Positions 17,422-19,644 of a stretch of 39,633 nt of DNA are shown one piece after another. Made by a program: the position numbers and the translations under genes. The stretch comes from Clostridia bacterium (GTDB taxonomy: Bacteria > Bacillota > Clostridia > Oscillospirales > Acutalibacteraceae), in contig JAGAPJ010000003.1 in assembly GCA_017623315.1 (NCBI GenBank), positions 1-39,633 on the forward strand, in the 5' to 3' direction. The notes beneath the pieces are model-generated. The model was not told the DNA's origin and ran no database searches. It worked only from the letters and a program-made list of their open reading frames with translations. Numbering within the stretch: the first letter of the stretch is position 1; every line of letters begins with the position of its first letter.

Positions 17422-17858
17422 AATTTCAACCGTCTTACATTGTGAAACAAACTTATCAGTATTGCTTAATTTTTACAAACTCCAGTAACCCAAAATGTAC
17501 AGTATTAATTTTTTTCGGTTTTTAATAATTACTTTGGTATTTTATTGCGATAACCAGCTTAGCGTTTATAAAACAGTTCAATGAACGACTGACTAGCTGA
17601 ACCAAAATTATATAATAAATTACTGTTGAAATATATCACCACGCGTTCATAATGTTTTCCGTGTTCAACAACGCAATGATATAATTCCGACGGCTTTTAA
17701 AACCGCCTTTTTATTTTCATCCATACTTGCCATTTCTTGAGGATTATCAGGATTTTAGGGGAGTCCCCCCTAATACCCCGTTTAGATGATTTTAATATTT
17801 TAAAAATTTTAAACAAAAAGCTGTTTATAAAACTTTTTCACATAAATTAAAAAAGTTC
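17422..17858. other. Gene-free AT-rich stretch, possibly with decayed remnants
   Basis: I find no convincing gene. Two very short minus-strand frames (about 17560-17690 and 17650-17740) are open for 30-45 codons but lack starts or matches I recognise. A TTAGGGG/CCCCTAA hairpin lies at 17755-17773, inside a C-rich patch that stands out from the AT-rich surroundings. Given the recombinase stump downstream, this may be debris of a lost mobile element, but that is inference. Confidence 0.4.
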
Positions 17859-17886
17859 TTGCATTTCTTTGAAAAATATGTATAAT
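17859..17886 (+). promoter_or_regulatory. Strong promoter ahead of the structured RNA
   Basis: TTGCAT (17859-17864), 16-nt spacer, perfect TATAAT (17881-17886). The expected start is near 17893, inside the LexA-like box, so transcription would produce the RNA that follows and stop at the terminator ending at 18090. Confidence 0.75.
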
Positions 17887-17890
17887 GGTT

Positions 17891-17908
17891 TTAGAACAAA
17901 TGTTCTAA
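17891..17908. promoter_or_regulatory. LexA (SOS) box overlapping the transcription start
   Basis: A perfect dyad TTAGAACA-AA-TGTTCTAA. The core GAAC-AAAT-GTTC fits the Gram-positive LexA/DinR consensus (GAAC-N4-GTTC). It starts 5 nt after the -10, over the predicted start site, which is an ideal position for repression. The transcript downstream would therefore be induced by DNA damage. Confidence 0.7.
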
Positions 17909-18090
17909 TTTAAAATTGAATAGGTGTCATGACGGGATGGTTGAGATGAAACAGGCTACATAATTCCATCGCCAGGTCAGATGCTTTGGACAACCGGTTA
18001 GGTTAAGCCAGACTTGCTTTATGCAGACATGAGAGGTCGCCGGCAAGATAGCGCTCAGAAATGAGGGCTTTCTTGCTGGTGGCCTTTTTT
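17893..18090 (+). ncRNA. Structured non-coding RNA of about 200 nt (raiA-like candidate)
   Basis: No gene occupies this stretch, yet it has a strong promoter, higher GC than its flanks and extensive pairing. A helix GG-GATGG (17934-17940) pairs with CCATC-g-CC (17966-17973) with one bulge; TCATG (17927-17931) can pair with CATGA (18028-18032); and GGTTG (17939-17943) could alternatively meet CAACC (17991-17995). The transcript ends in a long terminator hairpin. Length, terminator ending and clostridial setting recall the raiA-motif RNA, and the segment GAGATGAAACAGGCT looks like a conserved single-stranded core, but I cannot confirm the family without a covariance search. It is not a T-box, tmRNA, RNase P or typical 6S RNA by visible motifs. 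Confidence 0.7.
18035..18090 (+). terminator. Intrinsic terminator closing the structured RNA
   Basis: A 14-bp outer stem (18035-18048 with 18071-18084, including G-U pairs), an inner stem AGCGCTCA/TGAGGGCT with one mismatch capped by a GAAA tetraloop, then TTTTTT at 18085-18090. The wobble pairs in one strand only fit a plus-strand RNA. Confidence 0.88.
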
Positions 18091-18162
18091 GTTTCTTTGA
18101 TTTTTTCATTTAAAGAGGAGGTTAAGAATTTGGTATAGCTAAATACTTGTCTCACACTTTAG

Positions 18163-18810
18163 CAAGCATTTTTCTTTTGCTCGGCATACCGCAAGAATTC
18201 CGACGAATGTTCCGCCCACTATATCCGAGAAAAGGTAATAATGGAAACGGTGTTGGAAAGTATGCGGCGAATCTTGATAAACGTGCAAGCCTTTGAGAAA
18301 GAATTTGCCCGTAAACAGATGGAGTGCTATAGCGAGGATAAGAAAAGAGAACTTGCAAAGAAACGCCGGGAACTTAACAATGCAAAGAAGCGTATTTCCG
18401 AGATTGACAACTTAATCCAAAAACTTTACGAGGATAACGCTATCGGTAAAATACCCGATGAACGCTATGCAACTATGGCTTTGTCATATGAGGAAGAACA
18501 GCAAGAATTAAAGAACGCTCTTCCCAAAATGCAAAAAAATCTTGAAACCGAAATGGACAAAACCGAAAGTTTGCAGAAATTTATTGATAAGGTCAAGCGC
18601 ATAACTCCAATCAAGGAACTGACACCTGAGCTCGTACATGAGTTTATTGATAAAATCATAGTATACGCTCCAAGATACCTTGACGGCAAGCGAGTTCAGT
18701 TGATGGATATTTATTATAACGGCGTTGGCATACTTCGAGAACTCACTCCCGAAGAAATGGAAGAAGCATTCCAAAAACATTTGGCAAAACAAAAAGAAAA
18801 AACGGCATAG
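18163..18810 (+). pseudogene. C-terminal remnant of a large serine recombinase (DUF4368 type)
   Basis: The open frame begins after a stop at 18160-18162. From 18178 it encodes the end of a recombinase zinc ribbon (CSAYRKNSDECSAHYIRE), then the coiled-coil (AKKRRELNNAKKRISEIDNL) and the DUF4368-like tail (LVHEFIDKIIVYAPRYLDGK, GILRELTPEE). Large serine recombinases are about 500-550 aa; the catalytic resolvase domain, the recombinase domain and the first half of the zinc ribbon are missing, leaving about 210 residues. An ATG at 18241 exists without a ribosome site. An orphan AGGAGG at 18116-18121 is followed by TTG GTA TAG, so translation from it would abort. This is the stump of a departed or deleted integrative element. 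No partner genes remain. Confidence 0.85.
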
Positions 18811-18894
18811 CCAAAGGCTACACCGTATAACAAAATCAATTATTCAGTTTAAATACAAGAGCCTTCTAGGGCACCTTCCTTACGGAGGGTACCC
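18802..18894. other. Two hairpins between the recombinase stump and yebC
   Basis: The first (18802-18826) is ACGG-CA-TAGCC around AAA with its complement, overlapping the recombinase stop. The second (18869-18879 with 18884-18894) has 10 of 11 paired positions; on the minus strand its loop is GTAA, a GNRA tetraloop. GCACCT/AGGTGC (18871-18876, 18899-18904) offers an alternative pairing. Neither has a T-run, so termination after yebC is possible but unproven; they could also mark the right end of the old element. Confidence 0.5.
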
Positions 18895-18912
18895 CACAGA
18901 GGTGCTTTTGCT

Positions 18913-19644
18913 TTATTCTTCTGTCATTTCCCAGTTGTGCCAAACTGCCTGAACATCGTCGTTTTCTTCAAGCATATCAATAAGCTTTTCCATTTTAACA
19001 ACCATTTCTTCGTCGTCAATGGTGCTCATAGTTTGGGGAACATATGAAACTTCAGCTGATAAGAATTTATAGCCTTTTTCTTCAAGCGCATCGCGAACTG
19101 TACCTAAATCATTAGGTGCGGTTGAAATTTCAAAAATTTCACCGTCGAATTCAAAGTCCTCAGCACCTGCTTCCAAAGCGTCTTCCATAACGGTGTCTTC
19201 ACTAAGACCTTCGCCTTCAATCACAATAATACCCTTGCGGTCGAACATAAACATAACCGAGCCTGACTGACCGAGATTACCGCCGCACTTATCAAAATAG
19301 TGACGCATCTCACCTGCTGTGCGGTTACGGTTGTCGGTAAGTGTTTCAACAACAACTGCTACACCGCAGGGACCGTATCCTTCGTAAATAAGCTCTTCAT
19401 AGTTTGCGCCGTCACCTTCGCCTGCAGCCTTTTTAATAATTCTTTCAATATTTTCGTTAGGAACGTTTGCGGCCTTTGCCTTTGCAATAGCGTCCTTTAA
19501 TTTGCTGTTTTCAGCGGGATTAGCACCGCCCTGCTTAACAATAACTGCAATTTCACGACCAATTTTGGTAAAAACCTTAGCCTTTGCGGCATCAGTTTTT
19601 TCCTTTTTGCGTTTAATATTACTCCATTTAGAATGTCCTGACAT
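18913..19644 (-). CDS. yebC: YebC/PmpR (TACO1) family protein
   Basis: 243 aa, full length for the family (about 240-250). The N-terminal signature MSGHSKWSNIKRKKEKTDAA is present, as are ENSKLKDAIAKAKAANVPNE, YEGYGPCGVAVVVE and DNRNRTAGEMRHYFDK. Members act either as DNA-binding regulators or, as shown more recently for several YebC proteins, as translation factors that help ribosomes through proline stretches; sequence alone does not separate these roles. The ATG is preceded by AAAGGATG. Its own promoter lies in the end of dus, giving a leader of about 20 nt. Confidence 0.96.
   Translation of the reverse strand: MSGHSKWSNIKRKKEKTDAAKAKVFTKIGREIAVIVKQGGANPAENSKLKDAIAKAKAANVPNENIERIIKKAAGEGDGANYEELIYEGYGPCGVAVVVETLTDNRNRTAGEMRHYFDKCGGNLGQSGSVMFMFDRKGIIVIEGEGLSEDTVMEDALEAGAEDFEFDGEIFEISTAPNDLGTVRDALEEKGYKFLSAEVSYVPQTMSTIDDEEMVVKMEKLIDMLEENDDVQAVWHNWEMTEE

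Follow-up and report, generated by a model that had tools for sequence, protein, structure and literature searches.

The window analysed here, a 39,633-nt stretch of a Clostridia bacterium genome (contig JAGAPJ010000003.1), carries on its + strand, at 17859-18090, a unit that reads from its sequence as promoter, dyad, RNA and terminator, with a recombinase stump behind it. What is this RNA, and how is it connected to DNA damage and to the recombinase? A first-pass annotation took it for an abundant, free-standing non-coding RNA released by DNA damage, possibly of the raiA class. We suggest, on balance, that in an integrative mobile element it is the SOS-induced leader, or attenuator, in front of the operon for recombination and mobilisation, and that the copy in the window was left in a decayed element. 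The features of the locus are listed below (L numbers denote loci).

17768-17779, + strand: CCCTAATACCCC motif, common, among the fetched loci, only to L009 and L026/L063
17859-17886, + strand: promoter, TTGCAT (17859-17864), 16-nt spacer and TATAAT (17881-17886), read from the sequence
17891-17908, no strand assigned: putative LexA-type operator TTAGAACAAATGTTCTAA over the start site, from the sequence and from genome and family comparison
17893-18090, + strand: structured RNA, likely start ~17893, model part 17919-18090, from the fold, a 39-member family and covariation
17923-17985, + strand: 5' hairpin P1 with conserved apical loop GGTTGAGATGAAACAGGCTACATAAT, candidate receptor domain, from covariation
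17994-18004, + strand: putative antiterminator segment (CCGGTTAGGTT) that can pair with the terminator 5' arm, from family evidence, weak in the window copy
18031-18090, + strand: intrinsic terminator, long stem, GAAA loop, then T6, from sequence, fold and covariation
18139-18810, + strand: large serine recombinase remnant with an ORF at 18241-18810 (189 aa, DUF4368), from a domain match and homology

A promoter, a structured RNA and a terminator

The TTGCAT/TATAAT promoter, the perfect 8-bp dyad over the start site and the GAAA-capped terminator with T6 that the first-pass annotation described are all present in the sequence, at 17859-17886, 17891-17908 and 18031-18090, respectively. Slightly altered versions of the promoter are found at the second copy of the RNA in this genome and at L063/L026; the window promoter has a poor -35 box (three of the six positions of TTGACA). 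The terminator stem occupies 18031-18083 and the T run 18085-18090. A generic consensus scan for promoters and terminators listed neither the window promoter nor the window terminator, we think because of the poor -35 box and because the stem is too long and bulged for such a scan. The RNA start at ~17893 is taken from the -10 box, and the folded sequence amounts to ~170 nt.

The stretch 17894-18090 folds at -72.1 kcal/mol (z -5.45; none of 200 shuffles matched it), against -46.6 kcal/mol (z -2.10) for the minus strand of the same stretch, and its full-length minimum-energy fold is the terminator form. The GC content of the RNA is 0.48, in line with the earlier description of the segment as relatively GC-rich. 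A tRNA/tmRNA search of the window found none.

The raiA motif RNA (ModT) is a structured RNA of about 200 nt from Bacillota, and the present RNA shares with it the structure, a similar length and the phylum. Rfam has a raiA model; when the window was searched against Rfam 15, no family reached its gathering score, and the eight matches listed to E 10 include neither raiA nor 6S, and none of them makes sense. Since no Rfam family reaches its threshold, the RNA is neither raiA, the class proposed at first, nor 6S, which had been named for the same check. The riboswitch models of Rfam gave no match to the window either, though a ligand outside these known classes is conceivable. Seven fetched relatives were searched against Rfam by E-value only, and the best sub-threshold matches, sau-19 (34.7 bits, L012), MIR6024 (28.6 bits, L012) and frnS (21.7 bits, window), were rejected.

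The operator is a predicted LexA site

The LexA box of Bacillota is GAACN4GTTC. The dyad in the window consists of the 8-bp arms TTAGAACA and TGTTCTAA separated by AA, and it overlaps the expected transcription start. The mere presence of GAACN4GTTC in the window is not significant, as there is one occurrence against 0.31 expected and 28 of 100 shuffles contain the motif too. The source genome (1.67 Mb, 87% complete) contains 13 occurrences, of which five are at promoters, namely those of both RNA copies, of two Y-family DNA polymerase genes (both matching Pfam IMS) and of one small ORF; the remaining eight, as judged by eye, fall within ORFs, next to them or in an apparent tRNA. The exact 12-mer GAACAAATGTTC occurs four times, at the two RNAs, one Y-family polymerase gene and the small ORF. 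The LexA of this genome is identified by TIGR00498 (158.7 bits, above the cut-off) and LexA_DNA_bind, and its gene has a one-mismatch operator, CGAATAAATGTTCG, just after an apparent -10 box (by eye).

By this evidence from its own genome, the operator at 17891-17908 is a predicted LexA site, and its GAACN4GTTC overlaps a promoter as in members of the SOS regulon. The earlier identification of a LexA-type operator is thus strengthened by the same 12-mer before a Y-family polymerase gene and the one-mismatch form before lexA.

The promoter of the small ORF (L077 1500-1697, G000:C119) has TTGACA/TATAAT boxes with CGAACAAATGTTCG over the start, and the ORF is 56 aa long. Its N-terminal half appears hydrophobic by eye, and it could encode an SOS-controlled small membrane protein.

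An RNA family with covarying helices

The second copy in the source genome (G000:C30, L009) is 90% identical over window positions 17848-18098, from promoter to terminator, and its flanks are unrelated. A first covariance model, built from these two copies, matched 7 of 149 related genomes at E <= 0.01, the source genome included. An exact loop-pattern scan of genome contigs returned 32 loci, 31 of which fit a second model (R2) built from nine members. At E <= 1e-5, R2 found a match in 7 of 394 genomes of the order, the source genome among them, and in 2 of 398 genomes of the phylum, these being the source genome and one false terminator match. These counts show a family with few members spread over a wide range of genomes, which is what one would expect of mobile DNA. 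Where the pattern loci have a named host, it belongs to Clostridia, except for Faecalibacillus faecis (L052), one of the Erysipelotrichia; its lineage and three others were checked, and the rest are taken from record titles. Faecalibacterium sp. An121 and Diplocloster agilis are named isolates with a family member. One plasmid record (OY725878, L089) contains a family member, and a phage-collection clone (MT838509), 97.7% identical to L033, is an unverified 5-kb faecal clone.

Several candidates were discarded: the viral pattern match L010 is a chance match inside other sequence, L039 fits the loop pattern and not the covariance model, L088 is a terminator-only match, and L004-L007 are short matches unsupported by the covariance model. 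A second pattern and a degenerate pattern had no matches in viral contigs, and a blastn search for phage or plasmid copies of the window RNA returned none.

The clean alignment (A5), made with the covariance model, holds 39 members, 38 of them distinct, after minus-strand or partial terminator matches were dropped from the 59 matches of A4. It contains near-duplicates, and dereplicated members were used for the switch-pairing tests described below. Across the 38 distinct homologues, 93.8% of cells are paired and two-sided changes occur in 28 of 43 base pairs, compared with 15.3 such pairs in shuffles and 6-11 in slid versions; two-sided cells number 151, against 53 in shuffles. We note that the count leans towards itself, because we drew the structure from the related model and from RNAalifold on nine kin members; the slid controls fall far under the observed value despite this expected lean. 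Within P1, 10 of 16 pairs have two-sided changes, and both apical AG/CU pairs also covary. The conservation of the loops is partly built in, since 31 loci (the 32 minus one chance match) came from one exact loop pattern and form a non-random sample. The G-U pairs and the strand difference in folding place selection on the + strand RNA.

Covariation in homologues, which the first-pass annotation had set as a test of its structured non-coding RNA, is therefore strong, and together with the folding z-score it bears out that part of the annotation. The RNA apparently represents an undescribed family, mainly of gut Clostridia.

A leader peptide was considered and rejected. The loop reads AUG AAA CAG GCU GCG UAA in many members, but the frame is not kept: CUG replaces AUG in L028/L080, UAG replaces CAG in L032, L047, L079 and others, and the changes hit synonymous and non-synonymous positions alike (by eye).

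Damage-type regulation and recombinases around the RNA

Gene context was compared in 34 rows, with genes named via cluster representatives. The duplicates L036, L051, L053, L062 and L063 and the later loci L079, L080, L082, L083, L089 and L090 were left out, and the rows still include close kin (L055/L059/L061 and L030/L037/L040). Where a row extends 3 kb or more downstream, as 22 rows do, that side invariably has a recombinase, tyrosine or serine, on the strand of the RNA; for the window this is the remnant.

Six rows, which we call type A, have their own dyad-promoter: the window, L009, L026, L034, L035 and L047, with the dyad 25-26 nt before the RNA. The N4 of these dyads is AAAT in four, ATCT in L034 and GAAC in L047, and only two other GAACN4GTTC sites occur in the 34 rows, both just before LexA-like genes (L057, L060). 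Conservation of the dyad, the other test set by the first-pass annotation, thus holds in part, as it is found at the same place in 6 of the 34 rows and is absent beside the RNA in the other 28. Downstream of the RNA, L009, L026 and L047 have a ParB-like protein and a serine recombinase, and L009 and L026 have a NikA-like protein as well; L034 and L035 end too soon to show downstream genes. The L009 recombinase matches the CcrB and XisF models, below their cut-offs. The next genes of type A begin about 400-900 nt past the RNA, a distance at which they could have an unseen promoter of their own.

The 28 dyad-less rows, type B, are arranged differently. A Cys-rich ORF (cluster c4) is called upstream in 15 of them, and further upstream there is a LexA-like repressor (S24), a Y-family polymerase or an XRE/ImmA pair. 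Downstream there are, variously, a sigma-70-region-4 protein, a PemK-like protein, Xis and a tyrosine integrase, or else a serine recombinase. Upstream sequence of 2 kb or more is available for 23 dyad-less rows. It contains a Y-family polymerase or LexA-like gene in 15 of them and an XRE/ImmA pair in four more, so that damage-type regulators lie upstream in 19 of 23; in the remaining four (L030, L037, L040 and L043), no damage regulator was found upstream. LexA-like dyads with at most one mismatch stand between -35 and -10 of the LexA-like gene in five of the eight rows with such a gene. In dyad-less rows the SOS link, where there is one, would run through these upstream genes. Taken together, the counts of upstream regulators, dyads and recombinases suggest that damage-type regulation is what mostly feeds the RNA, whichever kind of recombinase the element has.

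Four further observations concern these neighbourhoods. In L015, the PemK-like gene that follows the RNA is preceded by an Rfam pemK RNA motif at 2517-2574 (66.7 bits, gathering score 34.8). The promoters ahead of the Y-family polymerase gene in L055, L059, L061 and L033 carry, by eye, dyads of the type CACGAC...GTCGTG, which are not LexA boxes and are perhaps operators of the divergent XRE repressor. An 864-aa NACHT-domain protein, possibly defence cargo, is encoded beside the second RNA copy (L009 5969-8563). Between the RNA and the NikA-like gene, at about 4900-5010 in L009 and about 7840-7960 in L026, there are two direct repeats of TCTTCGCAAGCATCG.GTTTTGATA.CCAC.GCATATTG, perhaps binding sites for the ParB-like protein.

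The gene context also bears on the free-standing reading, in which a trans-acting SOS small RNA is made upon damage, stops at its terminator and works elsewhere, through base pairing or a bound protein, its neighbours being incidental. Such an RNA would be expected to have what is seen here, that is, its own promoter, operator and strong terminator and conserved loops; the two copies in one genome share only the segment from promoter to terminator in the compared stretch, and the window copy is now without an intact recombinase downstream. However, 28 of 34 rows have no dyad beside the RNA, the Cys-rich ORF called upstream in 15 of those 28 suggests co-transcription, the recombinase is constantly downstream (22 of 22), and a covarying helix is mutually exclusive with the terminator. 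We therefore consider a trans-acting RNA unlikely. The relatives place the RNA between damage-type promoters or genes and a recombination operon and carry a terminator-excluding alternative helix, and for these reasons "abundant, free-standing" is not its best description.

A candidate switch helix

Directly upstream of the conserved GTTAnnCCAGA, family members carry a switch segment of 4-5 nt (UCGGU, CCGG, CCAGU, CCGAU, UCGAU and others) that is complementary to the terminator 5' arm just after the conserved GAGAGG. Because the same 5' arm builds the terminator stem, the switch helix and the terminator exclude each other. The pairing tests leave out L035 (cut by a contig end) and L088, and the duplex-energy version also leaves out L083. 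With the best of three registers, 26 dereplicated members form 124 of 130 pairs with their own partners, compared with 113.8 +- 1.9 for shuffled partners (p <= 5e-5), and with a fixed register 107 of 130, compared with 97.7 +- 2.3 (p 3.5e-4). For 11 distant members (0.80 dereplication), the fixed register gives 42 of 55 against 37.4 +- 2.5 (p = 0.096) and the best of three gives p 2e-4. The duplex-energy version of the test gives p 5e-4 to 9e-3. Among 348 segment pairs, the switch register ties for the highest z and, with the adjoining stretch of the same helix, for the top paired fraction (both 107/130). Covariation z reaches 4.2 also where under half of the cells pair, which indicates that kinship inflates z; the case for the switch therefore rests on pairing and variation together.

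When the RNA is folded without the terminator 3' arm, at least three expected switch pairs form in 19 of 26 members, and in the other seven the switch helix is not predicted in the nascent RNA. The expected number of switch pairs is 0.8 in the window copy, 3.4 in its sister L009 and 0.0 in L034, and the switch is therefore the weakest link in type-A copies, the window included. The exclusive, covarying antiterminator helix of an attenuator is accordingly a property supported for the family and weak in the window copy, and the intrinsic terminator at the end of the leader is present.

A different way past the terminator would be processive antitermination of the put/EAR/canT kind, in which the RNA binds RNA polymerase and carries it through the present terminator and later ones. 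Tn916 is reported to need such a cis-acting antiterminator RNA, canT (PMC11658703), and some dyad-less copies have a second hairpin and T run after the RNA terminator (L079, L080; by eye). On the other hand, the present RNA has a strong terminator of its own, its switch helix is of the ordinary attenuator kind, and full-length model matches reach at most 14.6 bits in a Tn916-type element. We consider this mechanism rather improbable by itself, and it could be combined with the attenuator reading. A plain insulating terminator, a stable hairpin without a switch whose upstream pairing is a by-product of repeated sequence, would agree with the minimum-energy fold and with the weak switch helix in the window copy but would leave superfluous the 63-nt upstream hairpin with its ten two-sided covarying pairs and conserved loops, and is very improbable.

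The window copy and its apparently decayed element

The recombinase stump of the first-pass annotation is confirmed by the DUF4368 match of the 189-aa ORF, and the homology extends 5' of the ORF's ATG to about 18139, ~50 nt past the T run. The window lacks the NikA-like and ParB-like parts and the front of the recombinase that L026 has. The element has decayed to the RNA and the recombinase remnant, and because only this remnant is left, the window copy may by now be no more than an orphan SOS transcript.

The RNA was also considered as a native neighbour of yebC, and this was rejected, as in each of 11 relatives the homology around yebC breaks off between 18894 and 18914. The recombinase remnant is likewise absent from the yebC flank in all 11, where up to about 1.5 kb beside the gene was compared. 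All 61 genomes matched somewhere in the yebC-region search, but G003 and G036 did so solely through the repeat that precedes the gene; 11 relatives were compared. After the remnant, window positions 18820-18922 have partial copies, 78-96% identical, elsewhere in the source genome and in several relatives of the genus, and so look like a dispersed repeat.

The CCCTAATACCCC motif recurs at L009 4876-4887 and L026 7966-7977 and, among 102 loci, is found only in copies of the three related type-A places. It lies upstream of the RNA in the window and downstream in L009 and L026. It is possibly an element end, a transfer origin or a transfer site.

A proposed model of SOS-fed attenuation

From the leader/attenuator reading, we infer how the trigger, the read-through and the effect on excision might be connected. 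DNA damage would inactivate LexA, or else a repressor that the element itself carries (LexA-like or XRE/ImmA), and transcription would enter the RNA. By default, it would stop at the RNA's terminator. A second signal at the 5' hairpin, which could be a factor, a ligand or RNA polymerase itself, would stabilise the upstream pairing, so that the terminator could not form and transcription would read through into the mobilisation and recombination genes, either those for NikA-like and ParB-like proteins and a serine recombinase or those for sigma-like and PemK-like proteins, Xis and integrase. In this scheme the RNA would be the second lock of an AND gate, with damage and a second condition both needed before excision. 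More tentatively, and as something we hold possible rather than probable, these RNAs may form a switch family new in Clostridia mobile elements, serving as this second lock, sensing the second signal with the conserved 5' hairpin, and adopted by both serine-recombinase and Tn916-like tyrosine-integrase elements.

The SOS-induced exit of integrative elements has mostly been told through protein repressors (LexA, CI/ImmR). With a conserved RNA between a damage promoter and recombination genes, horizontal transfer in gut Clostridia would also have to pass a checkpoint made of RNA. The leader, 170 nt long and with two helices predicted to be its on and off states, makes a compact test object. The literature on SOS-controlled RNAs, attenuators and antiterminators in mobile elements describes, among the matches listed, other systems only. 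Judged by these matches and by Rfam 15, there appears to be no precedent for the RNA family, for its SOS input or for its occurrence in elements of both recombinase kinds. We know of no SOS operator for put, EAR or conAn2.

Comparison with known systems

The 3' half of L012 is weakly similar to sau-19 (RF02386), at 34.7 bits against a gathering score of 80; the similarity is confined to L012 among the seven loci searched and is absent from the window's match list. sau-19 is reported with ArcR/Rex motifs in S. aureus (PMC5826253).

RNAs that overcome terminators include put, EAR and conAn2, the last in a conjugative plasmid, as cited in PMC11658703; they stand beside the present RNA by description and not by sequence. 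Closer in setting is canT of Tn916, described there as a processive, cis-acting antiterminator RNA with active forms of 341-452 nt that works after excision on the conjugation operon. Both are structured RNAs of Gram-positive mobile elements, conjugative in the case of canT, that govern, or in the present case would govern, read-through past terminators in cis. canT differs in acting processively, after excision and on the conjugation operon, and the available part of its account (PMC11658703) mentions no LexA link. Searched with R2, filters off, one Tn916-type element (L104) contained no copy of the present RNA, the best full-length match scoring 14.6 bits; canT itself was not located in this record.

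Tn916 also uses attenuation upstream of its own genes, as the present elements would. Attenuation of its tet(M) and excision genes is reported to be relieved by tetracycline and other translation inhibitors (PMC9632896). The two differ in their input: the Tn916-type record has an annotated leader peptide, whereas the present RNA has an SOS promoter, and its short AUG-AAA loop frame is not kept (CUG in L028/L080, early UAG elsewhere). The likeness extends to gene order, which runs Cys-rich ORF, HTH (other strand), sigma-like, HTH, Xis and Int. Between the Tn916-type and the present elements, the Cys-rich and sigma-like proteins are marginally alike and the integrases are clearly related.
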